From positions 806,001-870,000 of the forward strand of contig NZ_CP098415.1 of the NCBI RefSeq assembly GCF_023702125.1: a stretch of 64,000 nt of DNA. Direction: 5' to 3'. Shown one piece after another: positions 4,285 through 56,971 of this stretch. The position numbers and the translations under genes are program-made. This DNA comes from Halorubrum hochsteinianum (GTDB lineage: Archaea > Halobacteriota > Halobacteria > Halobacteriales > Haloferacaceae). Below the pieces are notes generated by a model, which was not told the DNA's origin, did no database searches, and saw only the letters and a program-made list of their open reading frames with translations. Numbering within the stretch: the stretch's first letter is position 1; the number at the start of each line of letters is the position of its first letter.

Positions 4285-6753
4285 ATGCGGCTCGGCGAGC
4301 GGATCGAGGCGGGAATACGACGCCTCAACGACGTCATCGTCGACCGCCCGCGGGCGGTCGTCGTGGCGTTCCTCCTGCTGACCGCGGTGTTCGCGGGGGG
4401 GATCGGGCTCGTCTCCACCGAGACCGAGCCCACCGAGGGGTTCACCGAAGGGCTCGACGAACAGGAGGCGCTCGACGCGGTCAACGAGGAGTTCGAGGAC
4501 CCGTTCGCGGCCGACGACGAGTCGACCCAGCTGATCCACGTCAGCGGGAACGCCCTCTCGAAGGAGGCGCTCGTCAGGAATCTCCGGGTGATCGAACGCG
4601 TCGAGTCTCGGGAGTCGCTGCGGGTGGCGGACGCGAACGGTCCGGCCACCATCGTCGCGCAGGCGATCGACCCCTCGGCGACCACGGTGACCGAACAGCG
4701 GCGGGCGCTGGAGGGCGCGACCGAGACGGAGGTGCGCCGGACCGTCCGTCAGCTCGACGACGCGAACCCGGCGTTCTCGCGCAGCCTCGCGACCGACTTC
4801 AACCCGACGAGCGCCTCGGCGTCGGCCTCGATCACGGTCGTCTCGCACGACGTGCCGAGCGGGTTCGACGACCTCGCCGGGCTCCAGACGGAGGTCGCCT
4901 CGATCGCTGACGACGAGCCGGCGGACATCCGGGCCTTCGGCACCGGGATCACCAACGCCGAGACCGGGCAGGTGATCGGCGACTCGCTGACGATCGTGAT
5001 GCCCGTCGTGGTGCTGCTGCTGTTGCTGTTCCTCGTCGTCGCCTACCGCGACCCGATCGACCTCTCGCTCGGGCTGCTGTCGCTACTGATGACGGTGCTG
5101 TGGACGTTCGGGTTCCTCGGCTACTCAGGGATCCCGTTCAACCAGCAGATGATCGCCGTGCCCGTGCTCCTGCTCGCGGTGGGGGTCGACTTCGGGATCC
5201 ACATCATCAACCGCTACCGCGAGGAGACCGTTCAGGGGTTCGAGCCCGTCGAGGCGATGCGGACCGCCAACAACCAGCTGATGGTCGCGTTCGTCATCGT
5301 CACGGTGACCACGGTGTTCGGGTTCGGGGCGAACGTCATCTCCGATCTCACCCCGATCCGCGACCTCGGGCTCGCGTCGGCGATCGGCATCGTGTTCACC
5401 TTCCTGATCTTCGGACTGTTCCTCCCGGCGGCGAAACTGGAGGTCGACCGCCTGCGCGAGCGCTACGGCGTCCCCGAGTTCAACTCGAAGCCGATCTCCT
5501 CCGAGGGCTCGACGCTCGGCCGCCTGCTCGCGTTCCCCGCGCGCGCCAGCCGGTACGCGCCGATCGCGTTCGTCGTGGTGTTGCTCCTGACCGGCGGGGT
5601 CGCGGCCGCCTACGGGAGCGGCGTCGACACCTCCTTCGAGCAGGAGGACTTCCTCCCGCCGGCCGAACAGCCGGAGTACGTCACGTCGCTGCCCGAGCCG
5701 TTCGCGCCCGGGACCTACACCGTCACGGAGACGATCAACCTGTTGGAGGACCGCTTCGCGACGAGTCAGGACCAGTCGGTGACGATATACGTCGAGGGGA
5801 ACTTCGAGTCGGACCACGCCCTGGCGGCGCTCTCGCAGCCGAACGCGGACCCGCCGGACGCGCTCGCGGTCGGTGACGGCGGGAGCGCCCGTCCGACGAG
5901 CGTCGCCACGGTGATCCGGTCGCACGCCGAGCGGGACCCCGAGTTCGGCGAACTCGTCGCGCGGAACGACCGCGACGGGGACGGGGTGCCAGAACAGAAC
6001 CTCGACCAGGTCTACGACGAGCTGTTCGCGTCGGCGTCGGGCGACCGCGCCGAGCAGTTCCTCACGCCGGACCGGCGGAACGCCAAGGTCGAGTACGCGA
6101 TCGACGCGGAGGCGTCGCAGGCCGAGGCCGCCGCCGACGCCCGCGCGTTCGCCGACGACTTCCGGTACGAGGCGACCGCTACCGGCCAGCTCGTCGTCTT
6201 CGACGCGATCACCGACATCATCTTCGACTCGGCGATCCAGGGGATGATCCTCGCCGTGGGGCTGACGGCCGGGTTCCTCGTCGTCGCCTACGCCGTGTTG
6301 GAGGGGAAGCCGTACCTGGGGATCGTGAACGTCTTCCCGATCCTGGTCGCGATCGCCTTCCTCATCGGGACCATGCGGGCGCTCGGCCTGTCGCTGAACG
6401 CGCTGACGGCGACGATCCTCTCGATATCCATCGGGCTGGGAATCGCGTACTCCGTCCACGCGACCCACCGGTTCATCGACGAGTACAACGACGGCCGGAA
6501 CGCCTACGACGCGATGATCAAGACGCTGTCGGGCACCGGCGGGGCGCTGCTCGGGAGCATGCTCACGACGTCGCTCGGGACGGGGGCGCTCGCGCTCGCG
6601 ATCACTCCGGTACTCGGCGACTTCGGGCTCCTGATGGCGCTCAGCGTGCTGTACTCGTTCGTGTTCACGGTCGTCGCGCTGCCGCCGGCGGTGTTGCTGT
6701 GGGAGCGCTACCGCGGCGCGCCGGCGGGACGACCCGCGACGAGTCCGGCCTGA
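4285..6753 (+). CDS. RND superfamily exporter (MMPL/SSD type)
   Basis: This 822-residue protein has the duplicated RND layout: one membrane helix near residues 25-45, a large outside loop, five helices at about 230-395, one helix near 430, a second outside loop, and five helices at about 640-805. The two halves carry the usual charged helix motifs (GVDFGIHIINRYRE and IGLGIAYSVHATHRF), the first with the Asp expected for proton coupling. Archaeal members are proposed to move hydrophobic compounds or lipids. It follows the CARDB protein directly and is probably repressed by the divergent TetR. Confidence 0.9.
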   Translation: MRLGERIEAGIRRLNDVIVDRPRAVVVAFLLLTAVFAGGIGLVSTETEPTEGFTEGLDEQEALDAVNEEFEDPFAADDESTQLIHVSGNALSKEALVRNLRVIERVESRESLRVADANGPATIVAQAIDPSATTVTEQRRALEGATETEVRRTVRQLDDANPAFSRSLATDFNPTSASASASITVVSHDVPSGFDDLAGLQTEVASIADDEPADIRAFGTGITNAETGQVIGDSLTIVMPVVVLLLLLFLVVAYRDPIDLSLGLLSLLMTVLWTFGFLGYSGIPFNQQMIAVPVLLLAVGVDFGIHIINRYREETVQGFEPVEAMRTANNQLMVAFVIVTVTTVFGFGANVISDLTPIRDLGLASAIGIVFTFLIFGLFLPAAKLEVDRLRERYGVPEFNSKPISSEGSTLGRLLAFPARASRYAPIAFVVVLLLTGGVAAAYGSGVDTSFEQEDFLPPAEQPEYVTSLPEPFAPGTYTVTETINLLEDRFATSQDQSVTIYVEGNFESDHALAALSQPNADPPDALAVGDGGSARPTSVATVIRSHAERDPEFGELVARNDRDGDGVPEQNLDQVYDELFASASGDRAEQFLTPDRRNAKVEYAIDAEASQAEAAADARAFADDFRYEATATGQLVVFDAITDIIFDSAIQGMILAVGLTAGFLVVAYAVLEGKPYLGIVNVFPILVAIAFLIGTMRALGLSLNALTATILSISIGLGIAYSVHATHRFIDEYNDGRNAYDAMIKTLSGTGGALLGSMLTTSLGTGALALAITPVLGDFGLLMALSVLYSFVFTVVALPPAVLLWERYRGAPAGRPATSPA

Positions 6754-16000: not shown

Positions 16001-16245
16001 GATACGCAGTTGTCGTCGATCCAACTGCGAAGACCTCCAAAGCCCCGCCCACACAGCAACCGTACCTCACGCCTCCCCAGCCTCGTCGCTGGCACCCTCC
16101 GCTTCGCTCCGGGGCCAGCGACTCCAGCGAGGGACCGAAGGTCCCTCTGGCAGCCGGCGCGTAGCGCCGGCGACCTCGCGCGTGCGCCTCGCGGGCCGAT
16201 GGCCCGCTCGCAGGCACGCGCCGACCGCGTCGTTCTTTGTAAGTG
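16001..16245 (+). ncRNA. decayed copy A of the repeated structured element
   Basis: This copy keeps the outline of the element described at 42675-42966 but has lost stem 1: the sequence jumps from CCTCCAAAGCCCC to the linker GCCCACACAGCAACC. The linker CCTCACGCCTCCCCAGCCTC is intact. Stem 2 is GTCGCTGG (16085-16092) with CCAGCGAC (16115-16122). Stem 3 is GCGCGTGC (16178-16185) with GCACGCGC (16214-16221). Extra hairpins are AGGGACC-GAA-GGTCCCT, GCCGGCGC-GTA-GCGCCGGC and GCGGGCC-GAT-GGCCCGC. Its flanking TATA boxes are degraded to GATACGCAG and TTTGTAAG, so it is probably not transcribed from its own promoter. Confidence 0.6.
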
Positions 16246-41939: not shown

Positions 41940-42623
41940 ATGGACGAGAAGACCGCCGAACTCCGCGATCTGTTCGTCGAGACCACCGGGTCCGAGTCGG
42001 TCACCGAGCGACAGGACGCGGCGCGCGGGACCCTCGTCGACGCCGACGCGGAGTCGGTCGACGGGACCGCGCGCGACCTCGTCGCCGCGATGCGCGAGCG
42101 GTACGGCTTCTCAACGGATCTCGCTGACGACGCGTACGTCCTCGTCGCCCGCAGTCGATTCGAGGAGGAGAACGACGAGGCGGTCGCCGCGACGCTCCGG
42201 GACGCGCTGGCGGAACTGGAGGACGCCGCCGTTGACCCCGACGCGGTCGACGCCGAGACGGTCCGCAGGGCGCGCCTCGACCTCCACCTCGTGCGGGAGT
42301 CGGACCGGGAGGTCGGCGAGGACGACGCAGACGGTGACGGCGCGGACGACGAGTTCGCGTACGACGACCTGAAGCGGCTCACCGCGGCGGGGAACTCCAT
42401 CGTCGAGTGCGCGGAGGAACTCGGCGCGACGCCCGACCGAGTCGCCCGTTACGCCGCCGTCGCGCGGACCGACATCGCCTCGACGCGGGCGAACGACCGG
42501 TTCCGCGACGCGTTCCGCGATCTCTTCGCCGACGCCGACATCGAGGGGTCGCTCGCGAGCGACGCCCGCGAGGACGGTCTCGAAGAGGCGACCGAGGACA
42601 TCGAGACGGACGTTTCGTTATAA
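41940..42623 (+). CDS. conditioned medium-induced protein 4-like
   Basis: This 227-residue acidic protein starts MDEKTAELRDLFVETTGSESVTE and is predicted all-helical, with a final DNA-binding-like segment (DDLKRLTAAGNSIVECAEELGATPDRVARYAAV) that resembles a helix-turn-helix. I recall haloarchaeal proteins of this type annotated as conditioned medium-induced protein 4, described as high-density-induced; the name is from memory. The stop codon TAA falls inside the TTATAAATAG box that starts the truncated repeat copy, so a repeat has landed exactly at the end of this gene. Confidence 0.7.
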   Translation: MDEKTAELRDLFVETTGSESVTERQDAARGTLVDADAESVDGTARDLVAAMRERYGFSTDLADDAYVLVARSRFEEENDEAVAATLRDALAELEDAAVDPDAVDAETVRRARLDLHLVRESDREVGEDDADGDGADDEFAYDDLKRLTAAGNSIVECAEELGATPDRVARYAAVARTDIASTRANDRFRDAFRDLFADADIEGSLASDAREDGLEEATEDIETDVSL

Positions 42624-42674
42624 ATAGTTGGCTGTGGATCGTCGGTGAACGCCTCCGAAGCCCCAGTCGCTCAC
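42618..42674 (+). repeat. truncated 5' end of the repeated element
   Basis: This 57-bp piece repeats the first part of the adjacent full element: TTATAAATAG box, a GATCGTCGGTGAACGCC segment, then CCTCCGAAGCCCCAGTCGC, where it stops. Its GAAC (42647-42650) is again 27 bp from the TATA centre. It lies directly before copy B, suggesting that one element inserted into or recombined with another. Confidence 0.75.
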
Positions 42675-42966
42675 TTATAAACAGTTGACCGCCGATCGAC
42701 GACGAACTCCTCCGAAGCCCCAGTCGCGAGGCGGTCGCACACTCGCTGTGGTCCTCACTCGGTCGCTTCGCTCCCTCGCTGCGGTCCTTGCGTCGTCTGC
42801 GACCGCCTCGCGACTGCCCCTTCGAGTCCCGCCCCGCACCGCAACCGCAGCCTCACGCCTCCCCAACCTCGTCGCTCCCTTCGGTCGCGACTCCCTCGCG
42901 CGTGCTCCTCGCGGCCGCCTTCGGCGGCGCGCTCGGAGGCACGCGCCACCGCAGTTCTATTTATAA
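42675..42966 (+). ncRNA. repeated structured RNA-like element, copy B
   Basis: This is the cleanest copy. Order: TATA box TTATAAACAG (42675-42684); GAAC at 42704-42707 where transcription should start; stem 1, CGAAG-CCC-CAGTCGCGAGGCGGTCGCA (42713-42739) against 42798-42824, a perfect 19-bp helix, a CCC/CCC internal loop and a 5-bp base; linker with CCTCACGCCTCCCC; stem 2, GTCGC (42871) with GCGAC (42887); stem 3, GCGCGTGC (42898) with GCACGCGC (42939), capped by GCCGCC-TTC-GGCGGC; and a closing CTATTTATAA. Stem 1 and stem 2 differ between copies by paired changes. No open frame in it looks like a real protein. Confidence 0.7.
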
Positions 42967-42990
42967 ATGAAGCCGGGGCCAGCCGGTCGC

Positions 42991-43683
42991 GTGACGCTGG
43001 TTCCATTCAGCGACTTGGCCCGCGCGGCGTACTGCCCCCGGCAGCTCTACTACGTTCGGCGCGACGACGGGCGGAGCGTCCCGCCGAAGGCGCGCGAACG
43101 CATCGATCTAGCGTTTCGCTACGACGAACTGGTCGACGCGCCGGATCGGGTGCTGCGGCGGCTACCCCTTCACCGGTCGCCGGCCGCGTACCGCCGGAAT
43201 CTGGACCGGTTGCGCGAGCTCGGCGAGTACGACGCCCTCGTCGACCCCGCGAGCGAGCGCGGGTTCCTCTCGGGCAAGGACTGTCACGGGACGGTTCACA
43301 AGGTGCTGGAATCGGGAGACGGCGGATCGAACGAGAGCGACGGGGAGCAGTCGCCGCCGGTCCCGACGCTGGTCTCCTCCGGCGAGCCGCCGGAAAACGG
43401 CGTGTGGGAGCCGCAGGCGGTCCGCGCGGTCGGGATCGCGAAGGCGCTGGCGTGGGAACGCGAGCGGGAGGTCCCGCGGGCGCTCGTCGAGTACCCCGCG
43501 GTCGGCGTCGTCCGCGAGGTCCGGCTCACGACCCGCAAGAAGGCGGCGTATCGGACGGCCCTCCGGAGCGCTCGGTCGATCGACGGCCCGCCGCCGCGCG
43601 TCGACGACGGGCGTTGCGATTCCTGCGAGTACGCGGGCGAGTGCGGGACGCGGCGACGGTCGCTCCGATCGCTGCTGGGGTGA
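42991..43683 (+). CDS. Cas4-like protein with lost nuclease motif
   Basis: This 230-residue protein keeps the Cas4/Dna2-like layout: an N-terminal Cys in AAYCPRQLYYVRR and three C-terminal Cys (CDSCEYAGECG) that would bind an Fe-S cluster. The RecB-type catalytic motifs are not there: where G-x-x-D and P-x-E-x-K are expected, it reads GTVHKV and PTLVSSG. It may be a non-catalytic Fe-S DNA-binding protein. No other cas gene is present. The TATA box TTTATAAA (42960-42967) at the end of the repeat is about 27 bp before GTG 42991, which I take as a leaderless start; an ATG at 42967 lies inside the TATA box. Confidence 0.75.
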   Translation: MTLVPFSDLARAAYCPRQLYYVRRDDGRSVPPKARERIDLAFRYDELVDAPDRVLRRLPLHRSPAAYRRNLDRLRELGEYDALVDPASERGFLSGKDCHGTVHKVLESGDGGSNESDGEQSPPVPTLVSSGEPPENGVWEPQAVRAVGIAKALAWEREREVPRALVEYPAVGVVREVRLTTRKKAAYRTALRSARSIDGPPPRVDDGRCDSCEYAGECGTRRRSLRSLLG

Positions 43684-43801: not shown

Positions 43802-45538
43802 GTGTGTCGTCCGCATGGGTACGAATGGCGCGAGACGAACGCGTTCGTTCGGAGGATAGAGGAAGTCGCCTCGCGGCGGCTGGCCGCGAAATTCTCCGGC
43901 GATAACGACTCCGGGGCACGACCGCCCCGCGGCGGCACCGACCCCCAGACCACCGACGAGCCGACGGACTCCCTTTTGACCCGAACACCACTCACCGACC
44001 TCGACGAGGTACAGCTGTTAGACACCACGCTGCGCGACGGCGAGCAGATGCCGGGCGTCTCGCTGTCGCCGGGCGAGAAGGTCGACGTCGCCCGCGAACT
44101 CGACGCCGCGGGCGTCCACCTGATCGAGGCCGGCTCGGCGTGCACCTCCGCGGGCGAGCGCGAGGCGATCCGGCAGGTCGCCGACGAGGGGCTCGACGCC
44201 ACCGTGACGAGCTTCGCTCGGGGGGTGAAACGGGACGTGGACCACGCGCTCGACTGCGGCGTCGACGGCGTGAACCTCGTCGTCCCCGCGTCCGACAAGC
44301 ACGTCGAGACGAAGGTGGGGTCGACCCGCGACGAGGTGGTCGAGACGACCGTCGAACTCGTCGAGTACGCCAAAGACCACGGCCTGTGGGTGGAGGTGCT
44401 CGGCGAGGACGGCTCGCGGGCCGACCTCGACTACCTCGAACGCCTGCTCGGTGCCGGGCTCGACGCCGGCGCGGACCGCATCTGCTACTGCGACACCGTC
44501 GGCGCGGCCGACCCCGAGCGCACCGCGGCGGTCGTCTCCCGGCTCGCCGACCGCGGCCCGACGAGCCTCCACACCCACGACGACCTCGGCTTCGGATTGG
44601 CGAACGTCCACGCCGGGCTGAAGGCGGGGGCGGACACCGTCCACGGGACGGTCCTCGGCGTGGGCGAGCGCGCCGGCAACGTCGCCCTCGAGGAGGTCGC
44701 GATCGCGCTCGGCGAGTCGTACGGCGTCGACACCGTCGAGCTCGCGCGGCTCTACCGGCTCTGTCGGACGATCTCGGAGGCGACCGGCGTCGCGCTCCCG
44801 CCGAACAAGGCCGTCTGCGGCGCGAACGCTTTCGCCCACGAGTCCGGCATCCACACCGACGGCACGCTCAAGGACGGGACGATGTACGAGCCGTACCCGC
44901 CGGAGAGGGTCGGCCGTGAGCGCCGGCTCGTCCTCGGCAAGCACGCGGGCCGCGCCGGGGTGAAGGCCGCGCTCGCCGAGCACGACGTCGCGGTGACCGA
45001 CGACGAGCTGCGCGAGGTCGTCGCGCGCGTCAAGGAGCTGGGCGAGCGCGGCAAGCGCGTCACCGACGCGGACCTGCTCGCGGTCGCCGACGACGTACGC
45101 GGCCGCGAGCGCGAGCGCCACGTCGAACTCGTCGACCTCTCCGCGACCTCCGGCGGGAACCTCCCGACCGCCTCCGTCCGGCTCCGCGTGGGCGACGACG
45201 AGCGCGTCGCCGCCGGCACCGGCTCCGGGCCGGTCGACGCCGGGCTGGAGGCGGTCCGGACGGCGCTGGCGGGCGACGGAAGCGACGACGAGGGCGCGGG
45301 CGGCGGCGTCGCCTTCGACCTCGACTCCTACCACGTCGACGCGATCACCGGCGGCACCGACGCGGTCGTCACCGTCGAGGTGGACCTCTCGCGGGGCGAC
45401 CGCTCCGTGAGCGTCTCGGCGTCGGACGCCGACATCACCCGCGCGAGCGTCGTCGGGATGGTCGACGGACTCGACCGCCTGCTGGCCGCCGAGGCCGACG
45501 CCGCGGACGCCGATCCGGGGGCGGTCGCCGACGACTGA
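43802..45538 (+). CDS. 2-isopropylmalate/citramalate synthase family enzyme
   Basis: This is a DRE-TIM metallolyase of the LeuA family. LLDTTLRDGEQMPGVSLSP is the catalytic N-terminal motif, THDDLGFGLANVHAGLKAG carries the metal His, and GERAGNVALEEVAIAL follows; the C-terminal 150 residues are a LeuA regulatory domain. It condenses acetyl-CoA with 2-oxoisovalerate (leucine) or pyruvate (isoleucine, citramalate); sequence alone does not decide. Coordinates show the longest frame from GTG 43802. The TATA box at 43790-43797 would start transcription near 43817, so the true start is probably later, perhaps TTG 43976 (the only later candidate before the catalytic motif). Confidence 0.85.
   Translation: MCRPHGYEWRETNAFVRRIEEVASRRLAAKFSGDNDSGARPPRGGTDPQTTDEPTDSLLTRTPLTDLDEVQLLDTTLRDGEQMPGVSLSPGEKVDVARELDAAGVHLIEAGSACTSAGEREAIRQVADEGLDATVTSFARGVKRDVDHALDCGVDGVNLVVPASDKHVETKVGSTRDEVVETTVELVEYAKDHGLWVEVLGEDGSRADLDYLERLLGAGLDAGADRICYCDTVGAADPERTAAVVSRLADRGPTSLHTHDDLGFGLANVHAGLKAGADTVHGTVLGVGERAGNVALEEVAIALGESYGVDTVELARLYRLCRTISEATGVALPPNKAVCGANAFAHESGIHTDGTLKDGTMYEPYPPERVGRERRLVLGKHAGRAGVKAALAEHDVAVTDDELREVVARVKELGERGKRVTDADLLAVADDVRGRERERHVELVDLSATSGGNLPTASVRLRVGDDERVAAGTGSGPVDAGLEAVRTALAGDGSDDEGAGGGVAFDLDSYHVDAITGGTDAVVTVEVDLSRGDRSVSVSASDADITRASVVGMVDGLDRLLAAEADAADADPGAVADD
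43815..43859 (+). CDS. 14-codon leaderless ORF before the LeuA-family gene
   Basis: ATG 43815 lies about 22 bp after the TATA box GTTTATACG and opens a 14-codon frame (MGTNGARRTRSFGG) ending in TAG at 43859. It is in a different frame from the LeuA-family protein and overlaps the doubtful first part of that frame. It could be a leader peptide or chance. Confidence 0.25.
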   Translation: MGTNGARRTRSFGG

Positions 45539-48589: not shown

Positions 48590-49801
48590 ATGCTCACTCT
48601 TGCCGACATCCGCGAGGCGCGCGAGCGGGTCTCGGGCGTCGCCCGACACACGCCGTTGGAGCGGTCACGCTCCTTCTCCGAGATGAGCGGCGCGGACCTC
48701 CACCTCAAACTGGAGAACTTCCAGCGGACGGGCGCGTTCAAGATCCGGGGCGCGATGAACCGGATCGCCACCCTCTCCGAGGCGGAACGCGAGGCCGGCG
48801 TCGTCACCGCGAGCGCGGGCAACCACGCGCAGGGCGTGGCGCTGGCCGCCAGCCGCGCGGGCGTCGACGCCACGGTCGTCATGCCGAGGTTCGCGCCCGT
48901 CTCGAAGGTGAAGGCCACCCGCGGGTACGGCGCGAGCGTCCGCCTGGAGGGCGTCGACTACGACGAGGCGCAGGCGTACGCCCACCAGCTGGAGCGCGAG
49001 GAGGACCGGACCTACGTCCACGCGTTCGACGACCCGGTCGTGATGGCGGGTCAGGGGACGCTCGGACTGGAGATCGCCGACGACTGCCCCGAACTCGACA
49101 CGGTCGTCGTCCCGATCGGCGGCGGCGGGCTGATCTCGGGGGTCGCCGTCGCGATCAAAGAACAGCTCCCGGACGTGCGCGTCGTCGGCGTTCAGGCGGA
49201 GGGGGCCGCCTCGGCCGCGAAGTCGCTGGAAGCGGGCGAACTCAGAGAGATCGACAGCGTCGACACGATCGCCGACGGGATCGCCACGCGGTCGGTCGGC
49301 GAGCGGACCCTCGAAGTCATGTCGGAGTACGTCGACGAGGTCGTCACCGTCGACGACCGCGAGATCGCCTTGGCGCTCACGCTCCTACTCGAACGCGCGA
49401 AGACGCTCGTCGAGGGCGCGGGCGCGGTCGCGCTCGCGGCCGTCCTCTCCGAGGCGTTCGAGTACGACGACGGCGAGACGGTCGTCGCCGCGCTCTGCGG
49501 CGGCAACATCGACCTCAACCGCCTCGGCACGGTGGTCCGCCGGGGGCTGGTCCAGATGGGCCGGTACCTCAAGATCACCATCGATCTGAAGGACCGCCCC
49601 GGCGAGTTGGAGCGCGTCTCCAGCATCGTCGCGCGCACCGGCGCGAACGTGTACGCGGTCCACCACGACCGCACCTCGCGGGACGTGGCCGTCAACGCCG
49701 CCGAACTCGAACTCGAATTAGAGACCGACGACGCCGAACACGCCGCCGACATCGTCGACGCGCTCGAAGCCGAGGGGTACGAGGTCGAGATCCTGTCGTA
49801 G
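48590..49801 (+). CDS. ilvA: threonine ammonia-lyase
   Basis: This 403-residue PLP enzyme has FQRTGAFKIRGAMN with the PLP Lys, the SAGNHAQGVA loop and the glycine-rich phosphate site GGGGLISG, followed by a C-terminal ACT domain (LKITIDLKDRPGELERVSSIVARTGANVY) that senses amino acids. It converts threonine to 2-oxobutyrate in isoleucine synthesis or threonine breakdown. A LeuA-family gene lies 3 kb upstream. Length and start are normal for the biodegradative/ACT-containing type. Confidence 0.92.
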   Translation: MLTLADIREARERVSGVARHTPLERSRSFSEMSGADLHLKLENFQRTGAFKIRGAMNRIATLSEAEREAGVVTASAGNHAQGVALAASRAGVDATVVMPRFAPVSKVKATRGYGASVRLEGVDYDEAQAYAHQLEREEDRTYVHAFDDPVVMAGQGTLGLEIADDCPELDTVVVPIGGGGLISGVAVAIKEQLPDVRVVGVQAEGAASAAKSLEAGELREIDSVDTIADGIATRSVGERTLEVMSEYVDEVVTVDDREIALALTLLLERAKTLVEGAGAVALAAVLSEAFEYDDGETVVAALCGGNIDLNRLGTVVRRGLVQMGRYLKITIDLKDRPGELERVSSIVARTGANVYAVHHDRTSRDVAVNAAELELELETDDAEHAADIVDALEAEGYEVEILS

Positions 49802-49811
49802 TCAGCCGCGA

Positions 49812-50167
49812 TTATTTATAGACAAACGGCGGTGGCGCGCGCCTACGAGCGGCGCGAAGCGCCGCGAGACAGCTCGCGCGAGGGAGTCGACCGGTCGGAG
49901 CGAAGCGGAGACCGGTCGACGAGGCTGGGGAGGTGTGAGGTGCGGTGCTGTGTGGGTGGGACTCGAAGGGGCAGCCGGGAGGCGGGCGCAGGCGTTCACG
50001 AGAGCTCCGCTCTCGTGAGCCAGTCAGAACGCTTCGCGTTCTGATGACGACGTAAGCACCGCAGGAGCGAGTGAAACGAGCGACGAGGAGCACAGCGAGC
50101 GTGCGCCCGCCTCCCGGCTGGGGCTTCGGTAGTGTTCGCCGTCGGTCCACGGCCGGCTATTTATAAA
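49812..50167 (-). ncRNA. repeated structured RNA-like element, copy C
   Basis: This copy is on the minus strand. TTTATAAATAG lies at 50157-50167, and GAAC (50137-50134) is again at the expected start of transcription. Stem 1 is CGAAG-CCC-CAGCCGGGAGGCGGGCGCA against its complement (plus-strand arms 49964-49990 and 50102-50128); three base pairs differ from copy B and each is compensated. Its loop carries two extra hairpins of 10 and 8 bp (49996-50018 and 50025-50043). Stem 2 is a perfect GTCGACCGGT/ACCGGTCGAC (49886-49895 and 49911-49920). The 3' end again has a TATAAATAA box. It fills the gap between ilvA and trxB. Confidence 0.7.
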
Positions 50168-50277: not shown

Positions 50278-51354
50278 TTAGTCGTCCGCGGTCGCGGCGT
50301 CGGCGTCGGCCTCGGTCTCGTACAGCTCACCGGCGCGCTCGCGCTCGGAGAGGTACTCGTCGGCGTCGAGCGCGGCCTTCACGCCCATGCCGCTCGCGGT
50401 CGCCGCCTGCTGGTAGTGGAAGTCGACCACGTCGCCCGCGCCGAACAGCCCCTCGACGCCGGTCTTCGTCTGGCCGCCGCCGCGGCCGCCCTCGGCGACG
50501 AGGTAGCCGTCCTCGTCGGTCTCGATCCCCGTTCCCTCCAGGAAGTCGGTGTTCGGCGTGTGGCCGATGGCGTAGAACGCCGCCCCCACGTCGAAGTCGT
50601 ACTCGTCGACCTCGTCGGCGGTCGCGGGGTCGTCGAGCTTCTCCTTCGGGTGGCCGTCGGGGTGTTCGACGAGCGTCACGTGGTCGATCCCGTCGTCCTT
50701 GCTCCCGTGGATCTCCGTCAGCTCGGTATTGAGGAGGAGTTCGATCTCGCCGTCCTCGACCTGCTCCATCGTGCGCTCGATCCAGACGTCCTCCGCGCGG
50801 AACTCCTCGCGGCGGTGGGCGATGTAGACGGTGTCCGCGAACTTCGTCAGGAAGTTCGCCTCCTCCATCGCGGCGTCGCCGCCGCCGACGACGAGCATGT
50901 CCTCGTCGCGGAAGAACGCGCCGTCGCAGGTCGCACACGTGGAGAGGCCGTACCCCATCAGCTCGTCTTCGCCGGGCACGCCGAGCGTCCGGGCCGAGGC
51001 CCCGGAGGCGACGATGACGGCGTCGGCGGTGTAGACGTCGCCGTCCGAGAGCGCGACGCGGAAGTGGCCCGCCGGCTCCTTCGAGACGTCCTCGATGACG
51101 CCGTTTCGCGTCTCGGCCCCGAACTTCGTCGCCTGCTCTTTCATGTCGTTGATCAGCCCCGGGCCGGAGATCCCCTCGGGGAAGCCGGGGTAGTTCTCCA
51201 CCTCGCTCGTCAGGGTGAGCTGGCCGCCCGGCTCGTCGCCCTCGATGAGGAGGGGGTCGTTGTTCGAGCGCGCGGCGTAGATCGCCGCCGACAGCCCCGA
51301 GATACCGGTGCCGGCGATGATCAGTCGACGGTGTTCGACGACGTCGTCGGTCAT
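50278..51354 (-). CDS. trxB: thioredoxin-disulfide reductase-like flavoprotein
   Basis: This 358-residue protein has an FAD-binding GTGISGLSAAIYAARS, the redox-active pair in LSTCATCDGAFF, a NAD(P)H motif VVGGGDAAMEEANFL, and the closing GLFGAGDVVDFHYQQAATASG FAD site. It reduces thioredoxin-like proteins in the cytoplasm. The C-terminal acidic tail is haloarchaeal. ATG 51354 is chosen; the frame upstream is Arg/Pro-rich. Confidence 0.9.
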   Translation of the reverse strand: MTDDVVEHRRLIIAGTGISGLSAAIYAARSNNDPLLIEGDEPGGQLTLTSEVENYPGFPEGISGPGLINDMKEQATKFGAETRNGVIEDVSKEPAGHFRVALSDGDVYTADAVIVASGASARTLGVPGEDELMGYGLSTCATCDGAFFRDEDMLVVGGGDAAMEEANFLTKFADTVYIAHRREEFRAEDVWIERTMEQVEDGEIELLLNTELTEIHGSKDDGIDHVTLVEHPDGHPKEKLDDPATADEVDEYDFDVGAAFYAIGHTPNTDFLEGTGIETDEDGYLVAEGGRGGGQTKTGVEGLFGAGDVVDFHYQQAATASGMGVKAALDADEYLSERERAGELYETEADADAATADD

Positions 51355-51449
51355 GTGAACGGGTTCGCCGCCCCGCCGTATGTACGTTGCGCCCGCTGTC
51401 GAGGGGGACGCACGACCGGGGGGCCACACCCGGCGTCGGGGCCCCCGCG

Positions 51450-52217
51450 CTACCGCACCGCAACGAACACGCTCCGGTCGTCGTCCGGCCCGTAGCCGTC
51501 GGCGACGGAGACGGAGTCGAACCCCGCGGCGGCGAGCGCGTCGCCGATCCGGGCGTCGGAGAACGGCGTCATCCGACGGCGGTCGACGAACGGGTCGCCG
51601 TCGGGCGTGAACGTCACCGCCCGCCAGTCCAGCCGGCCGTCGTCGGTCGCGACGTGGTGCGCGACCCGGACGTACTCGATCGCCCCGTCCGCGTCGCGGC
51701 CGACGTCCAGCCCCGGCCGGTTCCCCTCGGGCGGCAGCGGGGAGTTGTCGAAGACGAGGACGCCGCCCGGCCGGAGGGCCTCGCGGAGCGCCCCGATCGC
51801 GGGGTCGAGGTCGCTCGGCGAGAGGTGGTTCACCACGCCGCGGATCGCGACCGCCGCGTCGAACGGCCCGTCGTCGCCGAGGTCCGGGTCCGGGAGACCG
51901 GTGTGACGGAACGCGACCGCGCCGCCGGACTCGGCGGCTCCGCCGGTCCGGTCGCCCCCGGCGACCGCGCCGTCGCACTTCTCGCGCGCGACGGCGAGCA
52001 TCCCCGCGTGAACGTCGATCGCGGTCACGTCGAGCCCGCGGGCCGCGAACCGCCGCGTGTGCTCGCCGGTGCCGCAGCCGACCTCCAGCAGGCGCTCGGG
52101 GTCGACGCCGCGGTCGGCGAGGGCGTCGCGGACGAACGCGACGTCGCGGTCGTACTCCCATCCGGACTGGATCGCGTCGTACAGCCGCGGGCGCTCGTCG
52201 TAGAGGGCGTCGCCCAT
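51450..52217 (-). CDS. class I SAM-dependent methyltransferase
   Basis: This 255-residue protein begins MGDALYDERPRLYDAIQSGWEYDRDV and has the SAM motifs LLEVGCGTGEHTRRFAARG, TAIDVHAGMLAVAR, FDAAVAIRGVVNHLS and LRPGGVLVFDNS. It resembles methyltransferases of small molecules (type 11/25). The acceptor is unknown. It follows the DHH protein by 69 bp on the same strand and may be co-transcribed with trxB downstream. Confidence 0.85.
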   Translation of the reverse strand: MGDALYDERPRLYDAIQSGWEYDRDVAFVRDALADRGVDPERLLEVGCGTGEHTRRFAARGLDVTAIDVHAGMLAVAREKCDGAVAGGDRTGGAAESGGAVAFRHTGLPDPDLGDDGPFDAAVAIRGVVNHLSPSDLDPAIGALREALRPGGVLVFDNSPLPPEGNRPGLDVGRDADGAIEYVRVAHHVATDDGRLDWRAVTFTPDGDPFVDRRRMTPFSDARIGDALAAAGFDSVSVADGYGPDDDRSVFVAVR

Positions 52218-56682: not shown

Positions 56683-56971
56683 CCCGAAGCCCCAGTCGCG
56701 ATGACTCGCGCGCCTCGCTGCGCGCTTCAGTCGTTCGCTTCGCTCACTCCTTCCAGTGCTTGCGTCGGTGTGCTTCGTCCTCGCGACTGCCCCTTCGAGT
56801 CCCGCCCCGCACAGCACCTCACACCTCCCCAACCTCGTCGGCGGCTCCCGGTGGTCACCGCCGACTCCCTCGCGCGCGCTGTCGCCGGCGCTTCGCGCCG
56901 GCTACCAGAGGGACCTTCGGTCCCTCGCGGCTCGCGGCCGCCTTCGGCGGCGCGCTCGCAGGCACGCGCCG
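56683..56971 (+). ncRNA. repeated structured RNA-like element, copy D
   Basis: This copy has the core but not the flanking TATA boxes. Stem 1 is shorter: CGAAG-CCC-CAGTCGCGA (56685-56701) against TCGCGACTG-CCC-CTTCG (56781-56797). The linker CCTCACACCTCCCCAACCTC is intact. Stem 2 is GTCGGCGG (56837-56844) with CCGCCGAC (56858-56865). Stem 3 is GCGCGCGC/GCACGCGC with one mismatch, and holds three hairpins with TTC loops (GCCGGCGC, GAGGGACC, GCCGCC arms). It lies between the divergent folCP and ABC-2 exporter genes and may be an inactive copy. Confidence 0.65.

Follow-up and report, generated by a model that had tools for sequence, protein, structure and literature searches.

The window, i.e., the whole stretch of 64,000 nucleotides that was analysed, contains four copies of a repeat that is probably an ancient non-coding DNA element, palindromic and modular, similar in kind to PATEs, MITEs or REPINs and reshuffled through ectopic recombination. 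A mobile-type DNA repeat is favoured over an RNA gene because whole hairpins are swapped and because pairing follows DNA rules on both strands. In a preliminary description of the window, the copies had been taken for an undescribed structured RNA family. Much of this was borne out, as the element is repeated, non-coding and intergenic, has a conserved fold and corresponds to no Rfam family; its RNA nature found no support. Both repeat and fold are genuine and apparently undescribed, since no description of the family was found in the searchable literature.

Anatomy and copy number of the repeat

The family layout starts in its 5' part with a leader, CCGAAGCCC, stem 1, CCCCTTCGAGTCC and a CCGCACC-rich spacer, and continues in its 3' part with the linker CCTCACGCCTCCCCAGCCTC, stem 2, TCCCTC, stem 3 with its cap, and GCGCC-ACCGC. 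Stem 1 is typically a 19-bp palindrome around a loop of ~50 bases. In copy B (42712-42947, + strand), the outer CGAAG/CTTCG helix, the CCC/CCC internal loop, the CAG-to-CTG inner helix, the linker, and stems 2 and 3 are all found. Its leader (42618-42711) consists of two tandem units with a 57-bp period and 83% identity, as detected by a repeat search; each unit reads TTATAAAYAG...GAACNCCT plus CCGAAGCCCCAGTCGC, and the second one continues into the element. CCGAAGCCC, the 5' half of the outer helix and internal loop, occupies 42712-42720 and its partner CCCCTTCG occupies 42817-42824; they enclose the two arms of stem 1, which pair perfectly over 19 bp (42721-42739 and 42798-42816). The core motif GCCCCTTCGAGTCC (42816-42829), with 113 matches in the genome, was used to count the family. 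Further downstream on the + strand follow the pyrimidine-rich linker CCTCACGCCTCCCCAACCTC, conserved in the alignment of copies (42851-42870), the stem 2 hairpin, which comparison of sites revealed as an exchangeable cassette (42871-42891), and stem 3 with its capping hairpin, delimited by sequence and alignment (42898-42946).

Copy A (16037-16222, +; covariance-model match 16032-16154, E 4e-9) has lost stem 1, with CCAAAGCCCC-GCCC joined directly to the linker (CCCC to GCCC); it comprises the linker (16065-16084), stem 2 (16085-16122), a twin hairpin (~16123-16175) and stem 3 (16178-16221). Copy C (49834-50129, -; match 49972-49828, E 8e-21) is flanked by ilvA (48590-49801, +) and a thioredoxin-reductase-like gene (50278-52161, -), the 3' ends of which converge on it, and carries a twin-hairpin repeat inside its stem 1 loop (49991-50049, -), as seen in its sequence. 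In copy D (56684-56970, +; match 56789-56905, E 1e-11), the inner helix has a mismatch at pair 10 and loses register beyond pair 13. The single architecture that the preliminary description ascribed to all four copies thus applies to B, C and D, and fails for A, which has a twin hairpin and no stem 1. Its more detailed statements proved correct: the inner helices of B and C are both perfect over 19 bp and differ at exactly three compensated pairs, and stem 2 is different in each of the four copies and paired in each.

Leader units of 51-66 bp occur 0-5 times per copy; they differ from locus to locus but are the same throughout any one of the clear arrays, which suggests that the arrays arise by local re-duplication of the 5' end of the element. 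The tandem arrays seen include those at loci L056 (+, five units of 63 bp), L073 (-, four of 66 bp) and L069 (+, three of 51 bp). Nested in stem 1 of copy C, and of a small number of others, is the twin-hairpin repeat of ~50-60 bp, and a similar one occurs after stem 2 in copy A and inside stem 3 in copy D (about 56885-56931, +). The twin hairpin of copy C has matches on Halomarina, Natrinema and Halocatena plasmids and appears to be a small mobile repeat in its own right.

The 113 core matches were obtained at one mismatch or less in the 3.06-Mb genome, where a reversed-pattern control gave 0. They are divided 53/60 between the strands, and a few that lie outside the family layout are due to chance, so that the family has about 110 members in the window's genome, by estimate ~1% of its length. 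BLAST with copy C gave at least 70 matches, with 40 of 215 candidate places scored. Making and running a covariance model, a check put forward in the preliminary description, was carried out with 26 copies from elsewhere in the genome plus copy B; all four places in the window were recovered at E<=5e-9, and beyond them nothing scored below E=0.2 in the window.

No Rfam family describes the repeat, as had been expected of an undescribed element: nothing relevant was found in it at gathering or relaxed thresholds, and mir-H11 scored far below threshold. The only Rfam match in the window is elsewhere than in the repeat copies, namely, the leuA-Halobacteria leader RNA (RF03001, 73.4 bits) at 43845-43897 (+), downstream of copy B. 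In the gene 3' of copy B (42967-43683, +), the C-terminal part weakly resembles Cas4, at a score under the curated cut-off, and searches with Pfam and NCBIfam returned only ordinary genes as neighbours of the repeat.

Pairing in the stems and exchange of hairpins between sites

Pairing is well kept across the family. At pairs 4-19 of stem 1, the Watson-Crick fraction was 0.81 vs 0.62 (maximum 0.64) after shuffling of the right arms among copies, and the stems of extra copies stayed paired in nearly all cases, as anticipated in the preliminary description. An RNA helix tolerates a single transition as G-U and not as A-C, and a DNA palindrome makes no such difference. On the proposed RNA strand, ungapped G-T and A-C pairs numbered 12 and 14 in the first 10 pairs of stem 1, 7 and 9 in stem 2, and 7 and 32 in stem 3, where the A-C count is mostly one recurrent pair; the sums were 26 and 55, or 19 and 23 when stem 3 is set aside. 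Because stem 3 is dominated by this recurrent pair, the claim is limited to the safe statement that there is no wobble excess in the stems, and wobble depletion is not claimed. As a control, 31 tRNAs from the same sequences contained 45 G-U and 0 A-C pairs, a count helped by the preference of ARAGORN for tRNAs without A-C pairs, and the stems differed from these tRNAs at a Fisher p of 6e-16. The outer helix was found as CGAAG/CTTCG in 137 cases, CAAAG/CTTTG in 29, CAAAG/CTTCG in one and CGAAG/CTTTG in 0, with a search pattern that outside the genome's own copies permitted all four combinations; its intermediates are therefore one A-C and no G-T pair.

How the paired changes arise was seen by comparing orthologous sites. 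The closest named relative among the genomes recovered was H. tebenquichense, with flanks that are 95.8% identical at the ilvA site. Both flanks matched a copy site in the window's genome for 27 of 38 H. tebenquichense copies (the other 11 were not placed on both sides within the fetched stretches), and orientation was identical at all 25 such sites with an intact core on both sides. The flanks of orthologous sites are mostly 92-98% identical, and stem 2 identity was below 75% in 16 of the 24 site pairs. In all 16, the H. tebenquichense stem 2 matched the hairpin of another site at 86-100%, a comparison based on the H. tebenquichense column only, as the best matches in the own genome were sometimes the same copy. 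For example, the pair L231/L049 is nearly identical over ~600 bp and has a different hairpin at stem 2, and the pair L251/L074, with flanks 96-98% identical, has seven double and zero single changes in stem 1.

Within the window's genome, copy pairs with the same stem 2 had a barely raised stem 1 likeness (65% vs 63%) and never shared stem 3, i.e., stems 1, 2 and 3 assort independently among copies. Moreover, the stem-1 loop is inverted in L045 (minus strand) and L137 (about 5393-5490), and the stem-2 loop is inverted in L123. The inverted loops at these three loci look as if flipped between the palindrome arms. A different stem 2 in most site pairs, a shared stem 2 without shared stems 1 or 3, and inverted loops together indicate that hairpins move as units. 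Since the hairpins differ as whole cassettes, each resembling the hairpin of another site, the paired changes are not independent compensations, and the covariation between copies is mostly the exchange of whole hairpins rather than repeated independent compensation. The preliminary description had regarded the paired changes as a sign of selection on RNA structure; this reading was not upheld, given the lack of a G-T excess over A-C and the swapping of whole hairpins between orthologous sites.

A structured non-coding RNA family, read from the proposed strand with a start near the base of stem 1 and selected for RNA folding, is accordingly considered unlikely. It would explain the strong conservation of pairs over many copies, the architecture (including the CCC/CCC loop) that is conserved in a distant genus, and the orientation bias relative to the upstream gene, both detailed below. 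It would also fit the TTATAA that starts exactly 29 bases 5' of CCGAAG in 10/92 copies, 29 bases being the spacing of the archaeal TATA box. However, a strongly AT-rich box at the promoter position is present in just 14/92 copies, the stems show no wobble excess and the outer helix no G-T intermediate, the double changes are explained by cassette replacement, loops are inverted, stems recombine freely between copies, and the Rfam gathering score is not reached. A promoter in every leader was rejected, as a TATA-like box occurs in a minority of copies. A subset of the copies may, from their sequence, be transcribed, and co-option for some role is possible.

Genomic setting and distribution across Halobacteria

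According to a home-made gene caller applied to the fetched stretches, the copies are intergenic, with three apparent exceptions that are doubtful. The upstream gene is co-oriented and points at the element in 61/94 copies (p 0.005), and convergent settings (27) are more frequent than divergent ones (13). Where the next gene lies tail-first toward the element, the end of the element is typically ~10-60 bases from the stop of that gene, and an AT-rich stretch is found 11-23 bases beyond stem 3. The bias to follow a co-oriented gene counts against the DNA-repeat reading, as it is also predicted by a role in transcripts. All four observations would suit a function of the repeats at the 3' ends of messengers, where they would stop transcription or stabilise the RNA by their hairpins and be retained for it. 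This is nevertheless rather improbable, because one third of the copies have no co-oriented upstream gene, promoter avoidance alone yields the same bias, and the strand-neutral mismatches speak against the transcript being under selection.

Repeat matches were present in 52/52 Halorubrum genomes examined, in line with the search of other Halorubrum genomes proposed in the preliminary description. Of the Halorubrum species with a fetched ilvA locus, about 20 have the element at the copy C site in the same orientation. At the copy B site, it is present in 14 of the 16 genomes that come next in similarity and in 0 of the 13 after those; in one genome without it (G045), a short GCGCGCC stretch looks like a deletion scar. 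In an order-wide sample, the linker occurred in 19/19 Halorubrum genomes (15-194 matches each), had 0-9 matches in 42 genomes from other genera of the same family, and was found in 15/18 genomes of one genus of another family (up to 93 matches). This distant genus, which has the linker-stem2-linker-stem3 module, is probably Halorussus, because plasmid records of Halorussus match copy B. The layout there is the same, with other stem 2 and stem 3 sequences, and some copies keep stem 1 with CGAAAG-CCC...CCC-TTTC. Most of these copies are recognised by the Halorubrum-based covariance model at E 1e-7 to 0.07; as they were fetched via the linker, only the remainder of the model match is independent. 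In many copies of the distant genus (L260-L279), stem 1 is replaced by AGCTAGCTACTGCCG, in a different conserved stretch upstream of the shared module. The patchy presence suggests horizontal spread; no match to the repeat was found in the phage collection.

The CCC/CCC internal loop that is kept in the distant genus likewise counts against the DNA-repeat reading, hinting that something recognises the loop. If the host used the repeat as a chromosomal DNA site, e.g., in recombination, replication or the organisation of the chromosome, and a DNA-binding protein read the palindromes, this would account for the conserved loop and linkers and for the conserved sites and orientation. It would also agree with the restriction to the chromosome in the window's genome, where the second replicon, a plasmid, had no copy in the 100 kb that were read, vs ~3.8 expected at chromosomal density. 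Such a role is, however, very unlikely in view of the freely variable hairpin sequence, a copy number that ranges from 15 to 194 linker matches between species, and the absence of the repeat from most neighbouring genera.

Relation to known repeats and possible mechanism

Three groups of known elements are comparable to the repeat. The palindrome-associated transposable elements (PATEs) of haloarchaea (PMC3119063), one of which is present in Halorubrum lacusprofundi and its virus (PMC10544981), are, as far as the consulted text of these sources goes, likewise non-coding, a few hundred bp long, high in copy number and heterogeneous, with palindromes near their ends and smaller mobile repeats nested in them. 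The repeat shares near-terminal palindromes and lack of coding capacity, which belong to the criteria for PATEs. In contrast to the repeat, whose sites are mostly shared between species, PATE insertions are described in that text as strain-specific; PATEs are also defined by insertion without target duplication and by IS605-type ends, whereas the repeat has no match to the TnpB loci of its genome, and exchangeable hairpin cassettes are not mentioned for PATEs in the text consulted. In Haloquadratum, PATE palindromes are insertion targets of the SMR-A small mobile repeats (PMC3119063), which resemble the nested twin hairpins by their description there, although SMR-A is 110 bp and the twin hairpins are ~50-60 bp in length.

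REPs and REPINs, which owe their mobility to RAYT transposases (PMC3116915, PMC2817692, PMC3733652), also have more than 100 extragenic palindromic copies, and compensatory hairpin changes are common in REPINs even though these are mobile DNA (PMC3116915). The repeat differs in having three stems over ~240 bp instead of one or two short ones, and no Y1/IS200-type (RAYT) transposase was found in its genome. MITEs (including BOX, RUP and ERIC) are similarly short, non-coding, intergenic and structured, but terminal inverted repeats and target duplications are undemonstrated for the repeat, which has TTATAA near both ends in 3/92 copies and boundaries that are not fixed. BOX elements contain tandem repetitions of one module, resembling the leader arrays. 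Because a defining feature of each group is missing or undemonstrated, the repeat is classed as a non-coding palindromic repeat of haloarchaea outside PATE, REP and MITE.

An origin from IS605/TnpB or from an IS200-type transposase was rejected: the genome has no match to the IS200-type (Y1) transposase (PF01797), and BLAST of its four TnpB loci against some 55 copies gave no match. A clean empty site with target duplication was not found among the sites compared, and the L204 position of H. tebenquichense was dismissed as an empty site, as unrelated DNA lies there in the window's genome. With no transposase and no clean empty site found, mobility itself is putative. Ancient spread would probably have been due to an enzyme acting in trans on folded single-stranded DNA, and recombination among copies would be the main source of present-day change. 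Shared homology may be provided by the conserved linkers CCTCACGCCTCCCCAGCCTC and TCCCTCGCGCG, while the hairpins may provoke breaks or strand switches. Repair from another copy would then swap in a whole hairpin, so that pairing persists in spite of rapid turnover of the hairpin sequence; effects on adjacent genes, e.g., as a 3' end, would be secondary. According to the consulted text of the sources, gene conversion is efficient in polyploid Haloferax volcanii (PMC11276520) and hairpin-forming inverted repeats cause breaks (PMC3855049), and we infer that both processes operate at the repeat. It is conceivable, if doubtful, that the ~110 fixed sites continually trade hairpin cassettes, and that a dedicated recombinase or hairpin-processing enzyme, common to Halorubrum and the distant haloarchaeal genus, recognises the linkers and the CCC/CCC loop.

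More generally, textbook covariation in a repeated element need not mean selection on RNA, as swapped hairpins produce most of the paired changes seen here. The two readings are separated by counting wobble vs A-C pairs and by comparing orthologous sites, an approach that could be used to screen other structured-RNA candidates built from repeats. Lastly, the repeat is an abundant feature of a whole archaeal genus, and ectopic gene conversion in polyploid archaea can be followed with its copies as natural markers.
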